Positions 4,996-50,975 are shown, counted from the stretch's first letter. The stretch: 64,000 nt of DNA from an uncultured Chlorobiaceae bacterium (GCA_903843305.1 CAIMPI010000015.1:1-64000); one strand, 5' to 3'. The notes: generated from the sequence alone by a model not told the origin. A program made the numbers and translations.

Positions 4996-6238
4996 CAATC
5001 TCACAGCCATGCACAAGAAAACTGTCATTCCCCTGCTTCTTGTTCTTCTTGCGTTTGCCGTTGGCTGTGGCTGGTTCTTGTGGCAAAATCAACATCCCGT
5101 CAAGACAACCGCACAGAAAGCAATTCAGCACAGGCAACTCTATACCTGTTCGATGCATCCTTTTATTATCAGGGAGAAGCCTGGAGTCTGCCCTGTCTGC
5201 GGCATGGAACTGATCAAAAAGATTGAGAACGGCAGCAGCGCTCAGCCTGCAACAGTCGATCACCTCTCACTCTCGCCGACTCAGCGTGTTATGGCTAATG
5301 TCGCTACCGTTGAAGCGACATATAATACGTTGAACAAAGAGATCAATGCTGTGGGCATTGTACAATACGACCAGTCGCGACAGGCCAAGGTCACTGCCTG
5401 GGCAGCAGGCCGTATCGAAAGACTGAATGTAAACAGTGTAGGAGCAATTGTCAGCAAAGCGAATCCGTTAGCGGAAGTTTACTCCCCCGATCTCATTGCT
5501 GCACAGCAGGAGTACCTGCTGGCTTTCAAGAGTCGTAACCAATTGAAAAACTCACCATTCACCTCCATTGCACAGAGTGGAGATGGTCTGGTTGCAGCAG
5601 CAAAACAACGCCTTATCCTTTTTGGGGTCAAGGAGAGGCAGATCAACGCTTTGGAGAAAACAGGCAAGCCCAGTATCAGGGTACCCATCTATACTCCTTT
5701 ATCCGGTATTGTCATTGAAAAAATGGTTCAGCAGGGACAATACGTCAATACAGGAGAGGTGCTGTTCAACATTGCCGATCTTTCAGCCGTCTGGGTTGAG
5801 GTAGAGGTTTACGAGAACGAATTTCAGAATCTGCATATAGGCCAGCAGGTTGAAATCCGCTCACAGTCATTCCCGCAGTCTACCTTTACCGGCCACATCT
5901 CTTTTATCTATCCCTTTCTTGATCCAAAGACAAGGACTGTCAAGGTGCGGATTGCAATGCCCAATCCTGAAATGAAACTGAAGCCTGAAATGTTCGTTAA
6001 TGCCACGATAAAGGTGCCGCTCAGTCCAACAATTGTAGTACCTGTCACCGCACTCATGGACACTGGCAAACGGCAGATTGTATGGGTAGAAAGTTCACCC
6101 GGGATGTTCGAATCGCGTGAGGTTCAAGTTGGGCTGCATATCAATGAGAAAGTTCAGATTTTGTCGGGCCTCAACCCTGGCGACAAGGTTGCGGTTTCAG
6201 GCGGATATTTGATTGACTCTGAATCCCAACTGAAATGA
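4985..6238 (+). CDS. cusB: CusB-like periplasmic adaptor with heavy-metal-binding domain
   Basis: About 418 residues. An N-terminal hydrophobic anchor (KTVIPLLLVLLAFAVG) is followed by a small heavy-metal-binding domain, YTCSMHPFIIREKPGVCPVC plus GMEL, of the kind found in CusB/SilB proteins. The HlyD-type barrel-sandwich and beta-barrel domains come next (PIYTPLSGIVIEKMV, then VWVEVEVYENEF). Starts at 4985 or 5009 are both possible; 4985 overlaps the TolC-like stop by 11 nt. The protein links the inner-membrane pump to the outer-membrane channel and can hand over Cu(I)/Ag(I). It overlaps cusA at ATGA (6235-6238). Confidence 0.88.
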   Translation: MSINNLTAMHKKTVIPLLLVLLAFAVGCGWFLWQNQHPVKTTAQKAIQHRQLYTCSMHPFIIREKPGVCPVCGMELIKKIENGSSAQPATVDHLSLSPTQRVMANVATVEATYNTLNKEINAVGIVQYDQSRQAKVTAWAAGRIERLNVNSVGAIVSKANPLAEVYSPDLIAAQQEYLLAFKSRNQLKNSPFTSIAQSGDGLVAAAKQRLILFGVKERQINALEKTGKPSIRVPIYTPLSGIVIEKMVQQGQYVNTGEVLFNIADLSAVWVEVEVYENEFQNLHIGQQVEIRSQSFPQSTFTGHISFIYPFLDPKTRTVKVRIAMPNPEMKLKPEMFVNATIKVPLSPTIVVPVTALMDTGKRQIVWVESSPGMFESREVQVGLHINEKVQILSGLNPGDKVAVSGGYLIDSESQLK

Positions 6239-9200
6239 TAGAGAAGATCATTGAGTATTCCGCTCGTAACCGGATCGTCGTGCTGATGGTTTTCGGCTTA
6301 ATCATTGCCTGGGGTGGCTGGTCAATTTACAAGACGCCGGTCGATGCCATTCCCGACTTGTCCGACAATCAGGTGATCGTCTTTACTGACTATCCGGGCC
6401 GTTCGCCTCAAGTGGTCGAAGATCAAGTCACCTATCCGCTTGCGGCTAACCTGCAAGGGCTTCCTCAGGTTCGTGCCGTGCGCGCATCGAGTGCCTTCGG
6501 CTTCTCAATGATCTATGTCATTTTCGACGACAAGGCTGACATCTACTGGGCCAGAACCCGCGTTCTTGAGCGATTGAATTATGCGGCTTCACTGTTGCCT
6601 CAAGGGGTGGTTCCCACACTTGGCCCGGATGGCACGGGTGTTGGCCATGTTTTCTGGTATACCATTGAGGGTAAAGGGTACGACCTGGAACAACTCAGAA
6701 CCCTTCAGGACTGGTTTATTCGTTACCAGCTCAACACGGTACCGGGAGTTGCCGAGGTGGCCTCTATCGGCGGTTTTGTGCGGGAATACCAGATTGATCT
6801 CGACCCTGGCAAGCTCTTTGCCTATAACATCAAGGTCGGCAAAGTAATGGATGCTGTCAAGGCTTCCAACAGGGATGTGGGAGGCAAACTGATTGAACAG
6901 GCTGATGCTGAGTACCTGATCCGTGGCAGTGGGTATGTCAAGTCCAGAGCTGATCTGGAGAACATCGTCGTCGGAGCCGACATGCGCGGTATTCCCGTCT
7001 ACCTCAAGAACCTTGGCACTGTTCAGATTGGGGGTGCTATCCGACGAGGCCTGCTGGATATCAATGGCAATGGTGAGGCGGTGGGCGGCATCGTGGTAAT
7101 GCGATATGGCGAAAACGCTAAGGATGTCATTGATCGGGTCAAGCTCAAGATCACCGAGCTGGAAAAGGGGTTGCCTCCGGGTTTGAAAATAAAGGTCTCC
7201 TATGACCGCTCAGACCTGATCATGAGGGCAATTGACACACTGAAGAAAAACCTGCTGGAAGAGTCGATCGTCGTCTCTCTGGTGATTCTTATCTTCCTGC
7301 TCCACTTCCGGAGCGCTCTGGTGATTGTGCTGACCCTGCCGATTGCCGTCCTGATTGCCTTTATCACCATGAAGTTGATGGGAGTCACCTCTAATATTAT
7401 GTCGCTTGGCGGTATCGCCATCGCGATTGGTGTTCTGGTAGACGCAGGGGTGATTATGGTAGAAAACTGTTATCGCCATCTCTCGGAGATACCGCCTGAA
7501 GAACGGGATGCAAAAAGGCTGGAGATTGTCATGAGTTCAGCAAAGCAGGTCGGGCGGGCGATCTTCTTCTCGCTGGCTATCATCGTCCTCTCCTTTGTAC
7601 CGGTTTTTATGCTGGAGGGTCAGGAGGGCAAGCTCTTTCACCCGCTGGCCTTCACCAAGACCTTCTCGATGATGGGGTCGGCCATGATTGCCATCACGCT
7701 GGTGCCGGTGCTGATGTACTACTTTATGCGAGGCAAGATGCGTCCTGAGAGCGCCAATCCTGTATCAACCTTTTTCATCAAGCTCTATTCGCCGGTTATC
7801 CGCTGGGTGCTGGTCTGGAAAAAGACAACCATTGCGCTTAATATTCTCGCCCTCGCCATTGCTGTGCCGCTGTTCATGAATCTCGGCTCTGAGTTCATGC
7901 CGCCCCTCGACGAAGGATCACTGCTCTACATGCCGGTAACGCTGCCCAACGTCTCCATCACCGAGGCAAAACGCATTATCCAGATACAGGACAAGATCAT
8001 CAAGAGCGTGCCGGAAGTTGAGCAAGTTCTTGGCAAGGTCGGGCGGGCCGAAACCTCCACCGATCCTGCGCCAGTCTCCATGTTTGAAAGTATCATTATC
8101 CTGAAACCCAAAGAGCAGTGGCGAGCGGGAATCAAAAAAGCTGACATCGTGGCCGAGCTGGACTCCAAACTGCAACAGGTCGGCGTGCGTAACGGCTGGA
8201 CCCAGCCGATCATCAACCGCATCAACATGCTCTCCACCGGCGTACGCACTGACCTGGGTGTCAAGATTTTCGGCAACGACCTGAATGTGCTGAAAGATCT
8301 GGCGCTTCAGGCGGAAGCGATTCTCAAGCCGATCAATGGAGCTGCTGATGTGGTGGCGGAAAGGGTTACCGGCGGCAATTACCTGGATATCACTATTGAC
8401 CGCGAAGCTGCCGCCCGATATGGGGTAAGTGTCGGTGACATTCAGGATGTAATTGAGACGGCCCTCGGTGGAGAGATGCTCTCCACTACCGTAGAAGGAC
8501 GCAACCGCTTTCCAATCCGCATCCGATACCTGCGCGACTACCGCGACAATGTTCCGGCAATCGGTCGTATTCTTGTCGGCGGTATGGAGGGTGCCCAGGT
8601 GCCGCTCTCTCTGGTCACAACCATGAAGATCTCAACCGGTGCGCCTGAAATTAACAGCGAAGGCGGACTTCTGCGTTCACTGGTCTACCTGAACGTTCGC
8701 GGCCGGGATATGGGCAGCTTTGTCACCGAAGCCAAAGAGGTACTGGAACGAAAGCTCAAGCTGCCAGCCGGTTACTATGTAGCCTGGTCAGGGCAGTGGG
8801 AGAACCAGATTCGTGCGAAAGAGCGTCTCCAGATACTGATACCGCTGGGGATGGTCATCATCTTCATCCTTCTCTACTTTACGTTCAATTCGGTACTGGA
8901 GGCCTCCATGGTGATGCTTTCGGTACCTTTCGCCCTTGTTGGCGGGGTCTATCTGGTCTCGGCTCTCAATTATAACCTTTCGGTGGCGGTCTGGGTCGGC
9001 TTTATTGCCCTTTATGGCATCGCCGTTGAAACGGGTGTGGTGATGGTTATCTACCTTCACGAGGCGCTTGACAAAAAACTGCTGAATGGCCCTTGCAGTG
9101 AGCAGGATATCTACGATGCCGCCTTCGAGGGAGCGGTGCTCCGTCTGCGTCCCAAACTGATGACTGTGGCGGTCGCGCTGTTAGGACTGATTCCGATCAT

Positions 9201-9372
9201 GTGGTCAACCGGTACCGGAGCAGATGTGATGAAACCAATTGCCGCTCCGATGATTGGGGGAATGATGTCATCGGCAATTCATGTCCTTATCATGACGCCG
9301 GTCATCTTTGTCCTGATGAAAACACGGGATTTGAAGAAAGGTCGGTTGCACCATTCGGGCATGAAACACTAA
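6235..9372 (+). CDS. cusA: CusA-like heavy-metal RND efflux pump (HME family)
   Basis: A 1045-residue RND transporter. It has the HME-family N-terminus (YSARNRIVVLMVFGLIIAWG), a first periplasmic loop with DGTGVGHVFWYTIEGKG and TLQDWFIRYQL, and the TM4 charged motif GVLVDAGVIMVENC. The C-terminal segment RPKLMTVAVALLGLIPIMW and APMIGGMMSS is characteristic of CusA/SilA/CzcA. Many methionines line the C-terminal helices. The DGTGVGH and VASIGGFVREYQ segments resemble the copper/silver subgroup; substrate assignment also rests on CopA and the CusB-type metal domain nearby. It is translationally coupled to the adaptor. Confidence 0.92.
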   Translation: MIEKIIEYSARNRIVVLMVFGLIIAWGGWSIYKTPVDAIPDLSDNQVIVFTDYPGRSPQVVEDQVTYPLAANLQGLPQVRAVRASSAFGFSMIYVIFDDKADIYWARTRVLERLNYAASLLPQGVVPTLGPDGTGVGHVFWYTIEGKGYDLEQLRTLQDWFIRYQLNTVPGVAEVASIGGFVREYQIDLDPGKLFAYNIKVGKVMDAVKASNRDVGGKLIEQADAEYLIRGSGYVKSRADLENIVVGADMRGIPVYLKNLGTVQIGGAIRRGLLDINGNGEAVGGIVVMRYGENAKDVIDRVKLKITELEKGLPPGLKIKVSYDRSDLIMRAIDTLKKNLLEESIVVSLVILIFLLHFRSALVIVLTLPIAVLIAFITMKLMGVTSNIMSLGGIAIAIGVLVDAGVIMVENCYRHLSEIPPEERDAKRLEIVMSSAKQVGRAIFFSLAIIVLSFVPVFMLEGQEGKLFHPLAFTKTFSMMGSAMIAITLVPVLMYYFMRGKMRPESANPVSTFFIKLYSPVIRWVLVWKKTTIALNILALAIAVPLFMNLGSEFMPPLDEGSLLYMPVTLPNVSITEAKRIIQIQDKIIKSVPEVEQVLGKVGRAETSTDPAPVSMFESIIILKPKEQWRAGIKKADIVAELDSKLQQVGVRNGWTQPIINRINMLSTGVRTDLGVKIFGNDLNVLKDLALQAEAILKPINGAADVVAERVTGGNYLDITIDREAAARYGVSVGDIQDVIETALGGEMLSTTVEGRNRFPIRIRYLRDYRDNVPAIGRILVGGMEGAQVPLSLVTTMKISTGAPEINSEGGLLRSLVYLNVRGRDMGSFVTEAKEVLERKLKLPAGYYVAWSGQWENQIRAKERLQILIPLGMVIIFILLYFTFNSVLEASMVMLSVPFALVGGVYLVSALNYNLSVAVWVGFIALYGIAVETGVVMVIYLHEALDKKLLNGPCSEQDIYDAAFEGAVLRLRPKLMTVAVALLGLIPIMWSTGTGADVMKPIAAPMIGGMMSSAIHVLIMTPVIFVLMKTRDLKKGRLHHSGMKH

Positions 9373-44318: not shown

Positions 44319-44542
44319 TGGATTAGGGGGAATGTGCTGATGGTTTAGAGGGATTGGGATAAGCCAGCAAGAATAAACAGATATCATTTTTATACAATCT
44401 TTTAGATGACTTTTCGGATTAATTTGGAAGTTGCGAAATACAGAAATTTGTTTCTGCTTTTTCCGAATTAGGTAGTTCAGTCTAAACAATGTTAGAGCCC
44501 CGCACTCAGTGATCTTTACTTCAAGCAGACTATAGTACTTCT

Positions 44543-45499
44543 ATGATTGATGAGAGATGTCCAATTTGCGATTTGCTACTGGAGGAGAAGGGCGCTTCCG
44601 GTAACAATTACCAGTACCGATGCCAGCGCTGCGGTACGTTTCAGCTTACGGTAACTGCGAAGCATATGTTGGTGCACGAGTTTTCGGGCGCGGACGACCT
44701 GAAAAGAGCAGTTCTAAGTCACGCGGTACGAAAGATGCAAGCGAGCACGGAATGGCCCCAACTGACTAGCCATTCCTGCGAGCAAATCCTGAAGCAAAGC
44801 GGCCTGCCGAAGCCGGTGGAGCAAGCGCAGAACCTCCTCCTCTGGCTAGGCAAGGCTGCGGAAGCGAGCGATTCGATCGTGACCGAAAGTTGTGAAGCGC
44901 TGCAGGCAATCATTGGCGGTCGGCGGCCGGAGTCGGTTTACTACGTCGCCAGTTACCTGGTGAACCAAGGTTCAATCACGTATGACCGGACGGATAATGC
45001 CAAATTGACACCGCCATTGAGGTTTCAGATGAAGTTCGAGGGATGGGGGCGCTACGATCAACTCATGCACGAGTCTGCCGAATCTCGAATCGCTTTCATG
45101 GCCATGAAGTTCGGCGACCCTGAACTAGACGCAATCGTAGAAAACGTTTTCCGACCAGCAGTGGCTGCTGCAGGATTTGAACTTAGGATTCTCACAGACG
45201 TTCCGAAGGCTGGTCTCATAGACGACCGGCTGAGGGTAGAAATTCGACGTAGTCGATTCCTCATCGCTGACATCACACACCAGAACCCGGGTGCCTACTG
45301 GGAGGCTGGTTTTGCGGAAGGCTTGGGCAAGCCCGTGATCTACACTTGCAAGAAAGAGGCGTTCGCGGCTGGCGCTTCTCACTTTGATACGAATCACCAC
45401 CTTACTGTAATGTGGCATGAGGACGCAAAGCAGGTCACTGAGGACCTAAAGGGTACCGTCAGGGCGACCCTACCAAGTGAAGCGAAACTCAATGATTAG
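44543..45499 (+). CDS. Zinc-ribbon protein with nucleoside-deoxyribosyltransferase-like domain
   Basis: A 318-residue cassette-encoded protein. Residues 6-30 form a Cys4 zinc ribbon (CPIC, CQRC). The middle (about 50-170) is helical and may hold a winged helix. The last ~130 residues resemble the nucleoside 2-deoxyribosyltransferase/TIR-like N-glycosidase fold: IAFMAMKFGDPELD, then LIADITHQNPGAYWEAGFAE, with GLGKPVIYT. E254 in YWEAGF is at the position of the catalytic Glu of the family. It could cleave a nucleotide such as NAD+, as other defence effectors do; this is inference. The exact family is not recognised. Confidence 0.65.
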   Translation: MIDERCPICDLLLEEKGASGNNYQYRCQRCGTFQLTVTAKHMLVHEFSGADDLKRAVLSHAVRKMQASTEWPQLTSHSCEQILKQSGLPKPVEQAQNLLLWLGKAAEASDSIVTESCEALQAIIGGRRPESVYYVASYLVNQGSITYDRTDNAKLTPPLRFQMKFEGWGRYDQLMHESAESRIAFMAMKFGDPELDAIVENVFRPAVAAAGFELRILTDVPKAGLIDDRLRVEIRRSRFLIADITHQNPGAYWEAGFAEGLGKPVIYTCKKEAFAAGASHFDTNHHLTVMWHEDAKQVTEDLKGTVRATLPSEAKLND

Positions 45500-45520
45500 G
45501 TCTACAGTTTGGTAGACGGA

Positions 45521-45578
45521 CTCTAACAAGCCATTTGAGCCGACGCATATCGGCGCGGCTCAAATGGCTTGTTATAAC
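45521..45578 (+). other. Integron attC recombination site
   Basis: R'' CTCTAAC, then AAGCCATTTGAGCCG pairing perfectly over 15 bp with CGGCTCAAATGGCTT, then R' GTTATAAC. The apex is ACGCATATCGGCG, in which CGC/GCG can pair with one unpaired A on the 5' side, the extrahelical base typical of attC. The layout closely parallels the 60-bp attC of aadA1 (CCGACGC...GGCGCGG). Confidence 0.9.
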
Positions 45579-45610
45579 TTGACTCAGCATTACACCAAAA
45601 AGAAGTAATT

Positions 45611-48600
45611 ATGCTGTCACCTCGTGACCTGCTCAAAGGATTGCTGGAATACATCGAAGAGCAAGCCAAAGACATTGACCCGAAAGGCTACCGCATTTCT
45701 GCTGCGAAGGGGTTTGTTCGCCGCAATACTGATTTGGCTGGACTCCCTGGTCTGGAATTCGATCTTCGACCAGAGGGTGACCACATCTGGCTACATCTGG
45801 CGCGCCTCGAAGCCCATCGCCCGCCAAATGTTTCTGAGCAGTTCAAGGGGCTGTTCATTATCAGCAATGACCCGTTTGGTGAGCCTCCCGCACTGGATGA
45901 AGGCCATCTGATCACGTGGATTGCCCAGTATGAATCAACGCCTGATCCTCAATTGGCTAAAACTCATGACGCAAAGCCAGGAGAAGAAAAGTTGAGGCAG
46001 AAAGCTGACGCTGCTCTCCAGGAATACTTGCCTCAATGGAACGCTTGGGCTGAGGGTGAGCGTCCGCGTCGCAAGAGCATCTCCCTCTATGGTGATCTGT
46101 TCGCATTGAGACACCAGATTGAAGCCGAAGAGACAGCCAAACCTCAGGAGCTTGTATGGGGCGTAGGCGTTGCCTCCTGGCAGATACCGTTTGAGGAAAG
46201 CATCGTCAGTTTTGAATATCCATTACTCACTCAAGCCGTCGAAATTTCTATAGACGAAAAAAGCATGGCGCTGGATGTCCGTCCCAGATCTACCGATACG
46301 CGAGTGGAAATGGATGCGTTCGCTGCATGCTCACTGCCCGGAGCGACTGATGTTGAGCGTGCTATCAAGGAGCATCTCGCAAAGCATCACGAGAATCCTG
46401 TTACCCCGTTTGATGCTTCGAGCTATTCCGATATACTCAAACTTGCTGCATCAAACATGGATAGCAACGGTAGCTATCGAGAAATCCTTTCAAGGGGCGA
46501 CCTTGTTCCTGCCCCCGATGCCGACTTGATCGTTACAGATGCCTGGGTATTACTTTCACGACCGCGCACCACTCACTATCTGACGGATGACTTAAAACGC
46601 CTGAAGGAGAAACTTGCGAACGGATGCGATATTCCATCTGGCCCGCTCGCCATTGTTACTCCGCCTTCAGATACACCAGTTGAATTCGAGGCTATTCGTT
46701 TCCGTGGGCTATCAAGTCGCGGATCAACTCATGGTAAAGCCGAGGAGCTTTATTTTCCCCTGCCCTACAATGAAGAGCAGGTTACCATCATTCAACGACT
46801 TGAAAAAGCTGCGGGTGTCGCTGTGCAAGGGCCGCCAGGTACGGGCAAGACACACACCATTGCCAATGTTATTTGCCACTATCTGGCGACTGGCAGACGG
46901 GTTCTTGTTACCTCACGTGGAGAGCCTGCGCTTCAGGTACTCCAATCCAAAATACCAGAGGAGGTCCGCGCCCTGACTGTGGCGCTTATGGCCAGCGACC
47001 GTGAAGGTGTCCGCCAGTTTCAAGCATCAATCGAGACGATTCAGCATCAGGTATCCCAGCTCAATCCGGAACAGACACGGCTTGACATCGCGACACTGGA
47101 GAACGCCATTGATCGCGCCCACCACGAACTTTCCTCCATTGACGCACGCATTGATGAGATTGCAATTGCACAGCTTTCAGAGATAGAGGTTGATGGCGTA
47201 CCAATGCGTGCACAGAAACTTGCTGAGTTGGTTACTGCCGGATTGGAACAGCACGGCTGGTTTGATGATGAGATGACGCTCTCTCCGGAAAATGCGCCCC
47301 CTCTCACTGAAGAAGAGGCTGGCAAACTCCGTGAAGCACGGCGAAAGGTCGGACAGGATTTGGTTTATGTGCAGGCAAACTACCCCTCTGCTGATTCACT
47401 TCCTGCAACGGCTGCAATCGCCGAGCTGCATGAAACGCTCTCCAGTATAAGGAGAATTGAGGCTGAGGTTGAACGTGGTGACCTTCTTGATTTGAAGGCT
47501 ACAACTGCCGAGGTTCTCATCGCAGCGAGGGATCTTCTTGAGTTAGTTGAAGAAGCCAAAACTTTGGCCGAGGAGTTGGAGTCCGGCGAGAGCGACTGGC
47601 CCCTTGATTTGCGAATCAAATGCAGACAGCCATCTTTTACTTCTGAACGGCAAGCGCTTGAGTCTTTATTTTCAGACATTAACGCACTCATTGGAGCGCG
47701 CGCTGAATTCCTCAAGCGACCCGTGGAGTTCCCTGATGCAGGTTTGCACACAGTCAAAACCCGGGAAGCTGTCGCCCGCGCCGTCGAGACTGGCAAGCCG
47801 TTTGGCTTTATTACACTTGGTTCAAGCGAGGCGAAAGAGCATATCGCTTTGATTAAAGTCTCAGGACTCTCGCCTGCGTCACCAGACGACTGGGCTCATG
47901 TGCAGCGGCATATTGAACTGGATGAAAAAGTACTCTCTTTTGTGAGCCGGTGGAATCAATTTGCAGACGAACTTTCCATACCCCGCCTAGAAGGTGGCAT
48001 CTCTGCTTTACGCCGAATCGAGATGGTTGCCATCTTTGCGAAAAAGGCTCATCGACTGGCTACAGAATTCGATGCCACATTACCAAAAAAGGCCGAGGCA
48101 GTCTTCTTTTCAGCTCCTGCCAAAGCGTTGATGGGCAGTTCCGCCGAACTTCTTGAGGTCAAGAACCAGTTACTACGCCACCTTACCAAGGCAGAGCTAT
48201 CGAAAGCAGCAACCCAACTCAGCACTTTTCAGGAAAAACTTGCTGGCAAGAGCGGACCTGTATCTACTGCGCTCAAACAGTTCATCGAAAATCAACTTGG
48301 AAATCCGGATATTCCCTCTGAACGCGTCGCTGCGCAATATGCGGAGTTGACAGCCGAATTGAGGCGCATTGCCTCCCTGACGGTGGATCTCGCACAAATC
48401 AAGGATTCCGCTGCCCGTATTGAACAGGCTGGCGCTCCGAAACTGGCCTCGCGTGTTCGTTCTCAGCCAATTGAAATGTCTGGCGAAGATGCCGTTTTTC
48501 CTGTGACCTGGCGGCAAGCGTGGAACTGGGCTCGTATTCGAACTCATCTCGACAATATTGAAGCCAGAAATGAATTGGTTGGACTTTCGGCCAGACGCAG

Positions 48601-50182
48601 AGACCTTGAGGGTGGCCTCTCTCGTCTCTACAAGGATTTGGTTTCCAGGTCGGCATGGTTGGCAACCAAACGGAATGCCACGCCCAGGGTTCTCCAAGCC
48701 CTTGCTGGCTATGCAACCGCTATCCGCCGTATCGGTCAGGGAACAGGCCCAAACGCAACACGGTATCGCAGAGATGCACGAGAAGCTATGTTGGATGCTG
48801 CCGGTGCCGTCCCCTGCTGGATCATGAGCCATGCCCGTATATCGGAGGCCATGCCGCCAGACATCGGGGCTTTCGACCTTGTCATTGTCGATGAAGCGAG
48901 CCAGTCTGATCTCTGGGCGCTGCCCGCCATTCTGCGTGGCAAGAAGATTTTGGTCGTAGGTGACGATAAACAGGTCTCCCCTGATGGAAGTTTTATCTCG
49001 GGTCAAAAAATTCAGGCACTCAAGATTCGCTTTCTTTCCGGGCAGCCCTATGGAAGAGAGATGACACCAGAAAAGTCTCTCTATGATCTGGCAGCCTGCG
49101 TCTTCGCTGCTGAACAAGTCATGCTACGCGAGCATTTCCGTTGTGTCCCGCCCATCATTGCCTACGCCAATCGTCTGTTTTACAAAGGGGGGATTCAGCC
49201 GTTACGTATTCCAAAGGCCTCAGAGCGAATTGAGCCGCCGCTTGTCGATATTTACGTCACCGATGGCTTCCGTGACAAGCACGATCATAACGATTACGAA
49301 GCTCAAGCCATCGCCGAGGAGATTTCGGCCATTCTGAATAATGAGGCTTTTACAAGTCGCACGATTGGTGTCGTTTCACTGCTGGGCTTGGATCAAGCTA
49401 AACACATTGATTCCATCGTACGCCAACGGTGCGATGCCGCCGAACTCCTTCACCGCAAGTTTGCATGCGGGGAGGCCCGCACTTTTCAAGGCAGTGAACG
49501 GGACATCATGTTCCTGTCGATGGTTGCTGACAGCAAAAATTGTCACGCACTTTCTGGCCTGAAATTCGATCAGCGGTTCAATGTAGCAGCCAGCCGGGCA
49601 CGAGATCGAATGTATCTGGTTCGCTCCGTGAAAACAGCCGATTTGTCGGATAAAGATTTACGGCTTACCTTGCTCAACCACTTCAACCAGCCGATAGTGA
49701 CTGAAAAAGAGGAAGCAAGCGTGCTGATTGATCAATGCGAGTCAGGGTTTGAGCGGGAAGTGTTTTCCATCCTTGCATCTCGTGGGTATCGCGTTATGCC
49801 ACAAGTGAAAACAGGTGCTTACCGCATCGACATGGTCGTTGAGGGCGCAGGGGATAATCGCCTTGCAATTGAGCTGGATGGCGACGAATACCACGGCCCG
49901 GACCGATGGCCACATGACATGAATCGTCAGCGTGTTCTGGAACGAGCTGGCTGGGTTTTCTGGCGCTGCTTCGCTTCCACGTGGTCACTTCGCAAAGATG
50001 ATGTTCTGCAAGAACTACTGGAGCGTCTTACTGCTCTTGGAATTGAACCGATGGGAGCCATAGAACATGCGCCAAACCTTGTAGAAAAAAGGATATGGAA
50101 ATTCATGCCCATAGAAGATAATGGACAGGTCGTTGATGAAATGCAAGCTGTTTTGGAACTTGCAATATCAAGTGCAAAATAG
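45611..50182 (+). CDS. Large SF1 helicase with C-terminal PD-(D/E)XK-type nuclease
   Basis: A 1523-residue protein. The Walker A is GPPGTGKT (residues 407-414), Walker B is VIVDEAS (about 1092-1097), and helicase motifs include VVGDDKQVSP, TFQGSERDIMFLS and RFNVAASRARDRMYL. The ATPase is split by ~550 mostly helical residues. The C-terminal ~130 residues resemble a Vsr/PDDEXK endonuclease (YRIDMVVE, then AIELDGDEYHG and RQRVLERAGWVFWR). The first ~380 residues are of unknown fold. Similar helicase-nuclease fusions are known in anti-phage systems. The start is 33 nt after the attC. A dedicated partner is not obvious. Confidence 0.85.
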   Translation: MLSPRDLLKGLLEYIEEQAKDIDPKGYRISAAKGFVRRNTDLAGLPGLEFDLRPEGDHIWLHLARLEAHRPPNVSEQFKGLFIISNDPFGEPPALDEGHLITWIAQYESTPDPQLAKTHDAKPGEEKLRQKADAALQEYLPQWNAWAEGERPRRKSISLYGDLFALRHQIEAEETAKPQELVWGVGVASWQIPFEESIVSFEYPLLTQAVEISIDEKSMALDVRPRSTDTRVEMDAFAACSLPGATDVERAIKEHLAKHHENPVTPFDASSYSDILKLAASNMDSNGSYREILSRGDLVPAPDADLIVTDAWVLLSRPRTTHYLTDDLKRLKEKLANGCDIPSGPLAIVTPPSDTPVEFEAIRFRGLSSRGSTHGKAEELYFPLPYNEEQVTIIQRLEKAAGVAVQGPPGTGKTHTIANVICHYLATGRRVLVTSRGEPALQVLQSKIPEEVRALTVALMASDREGVRQFQASIETIQHQVSQLNPEQTRLDIATLENAIDRAHHELSSIDARIDEIAIAQLSEIEVDGVPMRAQKLAELVTAGLEQHGWFDDEMTLSPENAPPLTEEEAGKLREARRKVGQDLVYVQANYPSADSLPATAAIAELHETLSSIRRIEAEVERGDLLDLKATTAEVLIAARDLLELVEEAKTLAEELESGESDWPLDLRIKCRQPSFTSERQALESLFSDINALIGARAEFLKRPVEFPDAGLHTVKTREAVARAVETGKPFGFITLGSSEAKEHIALIKVSGLSPASPDDWAHVQRHIELDEKVLSFVSRWNQFADELSIPRLEGGISALRRIEMVAIFAKKAHRLATEFDATLPKKAEAVFFSAPAKALMGSSAELLEVKNQLLRHLTKAELSKAATQLSTFQEKLAGKSGPVSTALKQFIENQLGNPDIPSERVAAQYAELTAELRRIASLTVDLAQIKDSAARIEQAGAPKLASRVRSQPIEMSGEDAVFPVTWRQAWNWARIRTHLDNIEARNELVGLSARRRDLEGGLSRLYKDLVSRSAWLATKRNATPRVLQALAGYATAIRRIGQGTGPNATRYRRDAREAMLDAAGAVPCWIMSHARISEAMPPDIGAFDLVIVDEASQSDLWALPAILRGKKILVVGDDKQVSPDGSFISGQKIQALKIRFLSGQPYGREMTPEKSLYDLAACVFAAEQVMLREHFRCVPPIIAYANRLFYKGGIQPLRIPKASERIEPPLVDIYVTDGFRDKHDHNDYEAQAIAEEISAILNNEAFTSRTIGVVSLLGLDQAKHIDSIVRQRCDAAELLHRKFACGEARTFQGSERDIMFLSMVADSKNCHALSGLKFDQRFNVAASRARDRMYLVRSVKTADLSDKDLRLTLLNHFNQPIVTEKEEASVLIDQCESGFEREVFSILASRGYRVMPQVKTGAYRIDMVVEGAGDNRLAIELDGDEYHGPDRWPHDMNRQRVLERAGWVFWRCFASTWSLRKDDVLQELLERLTALGIEPMGAIEHAPNLVEKRIWKFMPIEDNGQVVDEMQAVLELAISSAK

Positions 50183-50275
50183 TTTTCAAGAACGTTCTGT
50201 CAGGGCGTTCGAGAGGGATGATTCGCGTTTTTGATGGCTCATTGAAAAACCAACTCAGCTTTCAAAAACTCTTGC

Positions 50276-50304
50276 TTGGTATTACATAAAACATTGCATA
50301 TAAT
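50276..50304 (+). promoter_or_regulatory. Strong sigma-70-type promoter of the PIN toxin-antitoxin pair
   Basis: TTGGTA, a 17-nt spacer and TATAAT. The expected start (about 50311) coincides with the ATG of the toxin, so the transcript may be leaderless. The gap from 50183 to 50275 holds no gene. Confidence 0.7.
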
Positions 50305-50310
50305 ACCACC

Positions 50311-50742
50311 ATGAGAGTTCCCGATATTGTACTCGACACAAATGTTATCATAGCAGCCCTACGTTCAAAGAGAGGGGCATCGTACAAGTTATTGTCATTA
50401 GTTGGAACGCATCAGTTTGAAATCCATGACTCAGTAGCACTAATCCTTGAGTATGAAGATGTCATTCAACGTCACCGGGAGGGACTTGGATTATCAAACG
50501 AGGAGGTATCAATGTTTATTGATACGCTCTGTTCAATGGCACACCATCACAAGATATATTTTATATGGCGACCATTTTTGACTGACCCAAATGATGAACT
50601 TGTGCTCGAATTAGCGGTTTCTGCACAATGTGAATATATCGTTACACACAACATAAAAGATTTCAGAGGTACTGAAAAATTTAGTATTCGAGCAATAACC
50701 CCGAAAGAGTTTTTGCAAATTATTCGTGAGGTAAAAGAATGA
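50311..50742 (+). CDS. PIN-domain toxin (VapC-like)
   Basis: A 143-residue PIN nuclease of the PIN_3/COG1569 type. Acidic residues in the expected places are D9 (VLDTNVII), E49 (LEYEDV), D95 (PNDELVLELA) and D117 (IKDFRG). It probably cleaves tRNA or rRNA. The order is toxin first, antitoxin second. Its stop overlaps the antitoxin ATG by 4 nt. It lies in the island between proA and lolD. Confidence 0.88.
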   Translation: MRVPDIVLDTNVIIAALRSKRGASYKLLSLVGTHQFEIHDSVALILEYEDVIQRHREGLGLSNEEVSMFIDTLCSMAHHHKIYFIWRPFLTDPNDELVLELAVSAQCEYIVTHNIKDFRGTEKFSIRAITPKEFLQIIREVKE

Positions 50743-50975
50743 GCGCATTAAGTTTACGTTTACCCAAATCATTACACGAGCAACTTCGAGAAGTAGCACA
50801 AGAAGAGGGTATTTCGGTCAATCAGTTTGTTATGCTTGCTGTCGCTGAAAAAGTTGCTTCTCTTTCAGCAATTGAATATTTAGAAAAACGGGCACAACGC
50901 GGTAGTCGTGAAAAATTTATTGAAATTTTAAGCAAAGTTCCTGATGTAGAACCAGAAGAGTTTGACAAGTTGTAA
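50739..50975 (+). CDS. Antitoxin, ribbon-helix-helix type
   Basis: A 78-residue protein. ALSLRLPKSLHEQLREVAQE is the beta strand and first helix of an Arc/HicB-C-like ribbon-helix-helix, followed by GISVNQFVMLAVAEK. The C-terminal ~30 residues are acidic and would bind the PIN toxin. It is coupled to the toxin by the ATGA overlap and may autoregulate the promoter at 50276-50304. Confidence 0.85.
   Translation: MSALSLRLPKSLHEQLREVAQEEGISVNQFVMLAVAEKVASLSAIEYLEKRAQRGSREKFIEILSKVPDVEPEEFDKL

Follow-up and report, generated by a model that had tools for sequence, protein, structure and literature searches.

Integrons have come to be seen as reservoirs of anti-phage genes, and the defense systems found there are reported to be streamlined for small cassettes, with smaller genes and no larger multi-gene systems (PMC12409362). 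In excision tests, cassettes of at least 1,500 bp were termed very large, yet no stringent length limit emerged; the default distance over which attC sites are joined is 4 kb (PMC5371416), a criterion also applied in PMC9668308. This study concerns a stretch of 64,000 nucleotides from an uncultured Chlorobiaceae bacterium (GCA_903843305.1, CAIMPI010000015.1:1-64000), referred to here as the window, in which positions 45611-50182 encode a 1523-residue helicase-nuclease. We consider it probable that this protein is a stand-alone, likely anti-phage enzyme whose gene arrived in the Chlorobiaceae lineage in the form of an integron cassette, oversized at about 4.7 kb. Defense-like integron cassettes are themselves already known; what is new here is a cassette of unusual size.

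The helicase-nuclease protein

The host belongs to the Chlorobiaceae, and its nearest genomes fall in the same genus. The open reading frame (ORF) at 45611-50182 (plus strand, as are all att sites, cassettes and domains of the window located below) starts with ATG; the gene is genuine and uninterrupted, and strong purifying selection acts on it. In a codon comparison with three near relatives, the ratio of nonsynonymous to synonymous substitution rates (dN/dS) was 0.10-0.15 for the whole gene and 0.02-0.08 for the nuclease part alone; these values show a protein that is maintained rather than decaying in the window genome. Its length, its domain order and its spacing from an upstream attC site agree with an initial annotation made from the sequence alone.

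By sequence and fold comparison, the product is a UPF1/Dna2-like superfamily 1 (SF1) helicase joined to a C-terminal MTES_1575 (PDDEXK/Vsr-like) nuclease. Pfam places AAA_11 at residues 386-583, AAA_12 at 1166-1337 and REase_MTES_1575 at 1380-1473 (49748-50029), the last at 106 bits against a cut-off of 38.2, which bears out the nuclease end proposed initially. The SF1 motifs GPPGTGK, DEASQ, GDxKQ, EHFRC, FQG and RFNVAxSRA are conserved or invariant among homologues; in a set of 12, motif I (GPPGTGKT, residues 407-414, 46829-46852) is invariant at residues 407-413 and motif II (DEAS, residues 1094-1097, 48890-48901) throughout. The degenerate nuclease site that the initial annotation had allowed for was not found, as D1407, E1421 and D1423 are invariant in 12 homologues, and both the helicase motifs and these acidic residues are kept at identities as low as 25%. 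Foldseek searches with the C-terminal half returned UPF1 (E 5.7e-14), IGHMBP2, Sen1 and Dna2 (E 5e-11) as the best PDB matches.

Human UPF1 aligns with residues 387-485 and 1091-1361, and the break in the helicase therefore falls after motif Ia and before motif II, within the first RecA domain. The insert is about 450-550 residues long, and AlphaFold models, which cover its ends only, are mainly helical there; of the split by some 550 helical residues described initially, the interruption stands and the helical character applies to the insert ends. Residues 1-385 (45611-46765) form a family-specific N-terminal region that is conserved in 56 homologues and modeled with a predicted local distance difference test (pLDDT) score mostly above 85. 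A fold search with these residues against the PDB gave no match at E≤0.001, so that structure prediction leaves this part as unassigned as the initial annotation had it.

Cassette boundaries of the helicase-nuclease gene

The DNA of the helicase gene begins at a cassette boundary, G^TTATAAC, at 45571, where the R' of the preceding attC (GTTATAAC, 45571-45578) is separated by 32 bases from the helicase ATG. This 5' boundary, GTTATAACTTGACTC, is common to the window and the sister genome G300, and reads GTTAGAACTTGACTC (boundary form GTTAGAAC) in L067, a locus from another phylum described below. The DNA in front of the shared boundary is unrelated in the three cases: a nucleoside deoxyribosyltransferase (NDT)/TIR-like cassette in the window, a Shedu SduA_C cassette in G300 and other DNA in L067. 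The G300 cassette (L044, reverse strand; ORF 8049-9212 of the reversed locus) carries a Shedu SduA_C nuclease domain at 54.6 bits against a cut-off of 27.

On the 3' side, the flank is common to relatives only up to 50216-50220. Neither attC scans nor a covariance model found a complete attC at 50183-50310; the initial annotation, which had reported no attC there, was correct to this extent, but a left arm persists at 50194-50220. This arm is recognizable only through comparison with relatives, in which it aligns with the complete attC of L067 and with degenerate ones of G302, G300 and G209. Shortened or mutated attC versions ending in GTTAGCC or GTTAGAC follow the helicase gene in G302, G300, G181, G280 and G241. 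Complementarity between the 5' boundary and R'' (the G^TTRRRY rule) is only partly kept in the window (GTTATAAC/GTTCTGTC). Since only the left arm of the attC survives, the element at 45572-50220, with 4,649 bp left between the 5' boundary and the break inside its own attC, is named a cassette remnant, cassette 2.

Complete forms of the cassette were found at two other loci. The L067 helicase, from a genome binned as Deltaproteobacteria (Myxococcota), is 90% identical to the window protein. Its 5' boundary, G^TTAGAAC, lies 32 bp before the ATG and its R'' 13 bp past the stop codon, and the two sequences, GTTAGAAC and GTTCTAAC, are perfect 8-base complements 4.6 kb apart. Over 58 bp, the L067 attC (5111-5173) shares 90% identity (E 1.6e-16) with the attC behind an unrelated gene of the Chlorobiaceae genome G015, in which a second attC match lies upstream of that unrelated gene; against plasmids, the L067 3' element gave chance-level matches only. 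The second locus, L090, is an 8.9-kb contig of a Methylococcales sponge symbiont, whose helicase homologue is 35% identical to the window protein. An attC with a folding free energy of -32 kcal/mol follows the stop codon by a few bases, the 5' boundary G^TTATGT is the perfect complement of its R'' (ACATAAC), and the same strand of the contig carries as many as six more attC matches. At 4,678 bp (L067), 4,785 bp (L090) and no less than 4,649 bp (window), these cassettes are several times the usual integron cassette size.

For training, the attC covariance model drew on nine attC sites from other integrons and on none of the sites under test. It matched L090 and L067 and gave no match at E≤1 in the 80 other homologue loci (1.3 Mb). 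As its sensitivity is limited (E 0.12 for the L067 helicase attC, E 0.24 for the window attC), both of these sites rest on sequence identity and folding.

The attI site and the first cassette

An attI site, together with a portion of the spacer usually found after intI, occupies 44386-44491, with the recombination point at G44491^T44492 and without an integrase gene. Across 110 bp it shares 73% identity (E 4e-13) with the attI adjoining intact intI genes in sister genomes (L021/L146), and across 82 bp 80% identity with a second sister attI (L153); its core, TCAGTCTAAACAATG^TTAG, is identical to that of L021. Because this upstream DNA matches attI sites beside intact integrases, the first cassette lies in a true attI and not in a secondary site. 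No intI is left beside the window attI, proA ending about 68 bp before the attI match, and the integron is thus incomplete. Among the genus genomes, 12 of 61 encode an integrase above the family cut-off, and the window genome retains only a broken fragment on another contig. This second integron remnant (L159, contig C46; 6628-6969 and 7746-7834) comprises an integrase C-terminal fragment with stop codons, one 210-residue ORF and a strong attC behind the fragment, scoring 38.9 bits with the covariance model.

Cassette 1 (44492-45571; 1,080 bp) is inserted at attI and carries its attC at the 3' end; the TTAGAG at its 5' end pairs, across 1.03 kb, with the R'' of the same cassette (CTCTAAC). The attC itself (45521-45577; R'' CTCTAAC, R' GTTATAA) folds on the bottom strand at -26.3 kcal/mol (z = -10.4), and no shuffled sequence folded equally well. 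An Rfam search over 44-52 kb gave no match, and a search for a near-copy of this attC elsewhere returned only the reverse strand of the palindrome itself. The cassette encodes a 318-residue protein (44543-45499) with a zinc-ribbon-like N-terminal part and an NDT/TIR-like C-terminal part. It matches a PADLOC TIR effector (E 7.6e-6) and, below the cut-off, Pfam Nuc_deoxyrib_tr (E 4e-4); the protein is possibly a nucleotide- or NAD-directed effector.

Comparison with relatives shows the order of the locus to be attI, cassette 1 and helicase, with the integrase missing and the helicase attC broken after its left arm. For these last two reasons the helicase gene is now immobile.

Distribution and genomic context

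In a tree of 35 homologues, L067 is the row closest to the window, and the copy from a second Chlorobiaceae genus stands apart from the window group, beyond proteobacterial rows. Because the closest row comes from another phylum and the second-genus copy branches apart, horizontal movement of the gene is likely, although the L067 contig, from a metagenome-assembled genome (MAG), could be misbinned; the L067 match suggests recent movement between the Chlorobiaceae and a bacterium of another phylum. The gene is patchily distributed: of 86 family genomes, 22 have a match at E≤1e-90. A phage origin was rejected, the phage collection having given one weak match and viral contigs two, both distant. 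In the second genus, the 62%-identical helicase (G315) was likewise rejected as a cassette, since the attC sites adjoining it have the opposite orientation; these sites (L170, 19-114 and 906-1026) accompany a GNAT-like gene.

The helicase-nuclease gene lies between proA, encoding gamma-glutamyl phosphate reductase, and a lolD-like ABC gene. Within the genus, this interval is a variable region that contains a restriction endonuclease (REase)-methyltransferase (MTase) pair, ATPase-HNH pairs (Septu-like, judged by eye), toxin-antitoxin genes and intact or damaged copies of the helicase. Large internal deletions disable the helicase in several sister genomes (L043, L045, L046, L048, L055 and L047), two of which share a junction at residues ~669/1031. 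Residues ~669-1030 are lost with a frame break in G302 and G280, and residues ~180-911 in G209 and G241; the G300 copy is intact. Upstream of the helicase in L043 and L044, a 177-residue putative REase, for which Pfam gave no confident match, forms a pair with an N6/N4 MTase, the frame of which is broken in G300. Extra copies of the proA 3' end occur in the variable region of G300 (L044, 7837-7951), G181 (L046, 5116-5230) and G256 (L049, 3054-3124; reversed-locus coordinates), and look as if an element targeting the end of proA had inserted. In the window itself, the helicase is followed at 50311-50975 by a PIN toxin (TIGR00305, over the cut-off) and a ribbon-helix-helix antitoxin-like gene, and then by a HicB-like gene (to 51413). 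Near the helicase of G044 (L053, 771-6934), an unassigned 1588-residue protein is encoded together with a 466-residue ATPase-like partner.

Predicted function and mechanism

The anti-phage link made in the initial annotation is supported by similarity to PDC-S37, ProA and Hhe, each of them catalogued as a candidate or named anti-phage protein, and by the neighbors of homologues, and from these a defense role is inferred. Homologues are not confined to the housekeeping contexts that the annotation had considered: they adjoin BrxL (BREX), DrmD (DISARM), JetD (Wadjet), HsdR (type I restriction) and type III REase genes, these examples belonging to ten neighbors chosen by hand as an illustration and not as a rate. 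Other homologues lie beside BREX genes on Acinetobacter plasmids and beside an MTase and an REase on a Sphingobium plasmid. A PADLOC scan found 211 families in 136 nearest-neighbor proteins against 69 in 84 distant ones, families rather than proteins being counted, so that no enrichment figure can be given. The recurring partners suggested initially did not appear: all-against-all clustering of neighbors at 89 loci gave no cluster present in more than three, and an obligate partner gene was therefore rejected.

At some time in the past, an integron integrase would have acted on the helicase cassette through its folded attC, recombining it. In the most likely mechanism of the protein, the N-terminal region, perhaps with the insert, would recognize or load on foreign DNA, the UPF1/Dna2-like SF1 motor would then move along it driven by ATP, and the C-terminal PDDEXK nuclease would cut it, the enzyme presumably acting autonomously without an obligate partner gene.

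Alternative explanations

The initial annotation left two histories side by side, a truncated giant cassette and a resident defense gene. Under the latter, the helicase was in place downstream of proA before any cassette arrived, and a secondary site ahead of it then took up integron cassettes (cassette 1 in the window, the Shedu-like cassette in G300). Several observations weigh against the cassette history, some of them in favor of residence. The helicase follows an REase-MTase pair in two sister genomes, in G302 directly, with a degenerate 5' boundary (GTAAGAC) and neither a cassette nor an attC upstream, and copies at 84-86% identity (same genus) and 62% (second genus) lack cassette ends. 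The attC of cassette 1, although the best covariance-model match in 44-52 kb, is weak (11.7 bits, E 0.24), that of the L067 helicase reaches only 19.6 bits (E 0.12) and has ATT instead of GTT as its R', and both L067 and L090 are MAG contigs. With regard to function, the closest PADLOC model, PDC-S37, leaves residues 1-389 uncovered, and no experimental test of defense (phage assay) was found in the literature searched. Residence is nevertheless unlikely, as a true attI rather than a secondary site precedes cassette 1, the 3' flank of the helicase retains one half of an attC that occurs in full behind an unrelated gene, and both cassette ends are present in L067 and L090. The attI upstream, the intact cassettes of L067 and L090 and the half attC behind the window gene thus favor, with moderate confidence, the truncated giant cassette.

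Two further readings concern what the protein does. The upstream REase-MTase pair, on the same strand in G302 and G300, together with the row of MTase, REase and helicase genes on the Sphingobium plasmid, could mean that the helicase is the third gene of a restriction operon and works only with it. This is improbable: the window helicase is intact though no REase or MTase genes adjoin it, the REase and MTase sizes are far apart between settings (177 and 310 residues versus 928 and 1080), and no partner is common to more than three of the 89 loci. We assign the lowest probability to a Dna2/UPF1-like repair or replication enzyme outside defense. Its case draws on the folds retrieved for the C-terminal half (UPF1, IGHMBP2, Sen1, Dna2) and on some homologues that stand alone between housekeeping genes, and is countered by the patchy presence in family genomes, the decay by internal deletions in sister genomes, the cross-phylum transfer and the defense neighbors of homologues.

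Comparison with known systems

A cassette of about 4.7 kb with an entire helicase-nuclease, if correctly read, would imply that size is no hard limit, in agreement with the excision experiments (PMC5371416), and surveys that cluster attC sites at <4 kb could split or miss such cassettes. It appears an even proposition that integrons shuttle giant single-gene helicase-nuclease defense cassettes (~4.7-4.8 kb, ~1,520 residues) between phyla and that standard surveys, with their 4-kb attC joining default, overlook them.

Among described families, the best PADLOC match is PDC-S37 (PDLC05009), likewise a single large protein, whose profile aligns over positions 298-1340 of 1550 with residues 390-1475 (215 bits); it is itself a PADLOC candidate, and the literature searched yielded no description of it. 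The NCBIfam antiphage ProA model (NF058533), for which the literature searched also yielded no paper, resembles the helicase-nuclease part (residues 376-1476, 212.9 bits), but the window protein falls far under its 1500-bit equivalog cut-off; the model has 1903 positions, and the N-terminal part is unmatched. Hhe (NF042953, PDLC02194) aligns with the second half of the motor and the nuclease (134 and 113 bits), whereas its 2000-bit cut-off is missed and Pfam detects no DUF4011 in the window protein. UPF1, IGHMBP2 and Dna2 share the SF1 core, in contrast to which the window protein has a C-terminal nuclease, a large insert in the first RecA domain and an unrelated N-terminus. The integron-borne anti-phage cassettes of Darracq et al. 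2025 (as reviewed in PMC12409362) are similar in that defense-like genes travel as integron cassettes, but the cassette described here measures 4.65-4.8 kb and encodes one protein of ~1,520 residues.

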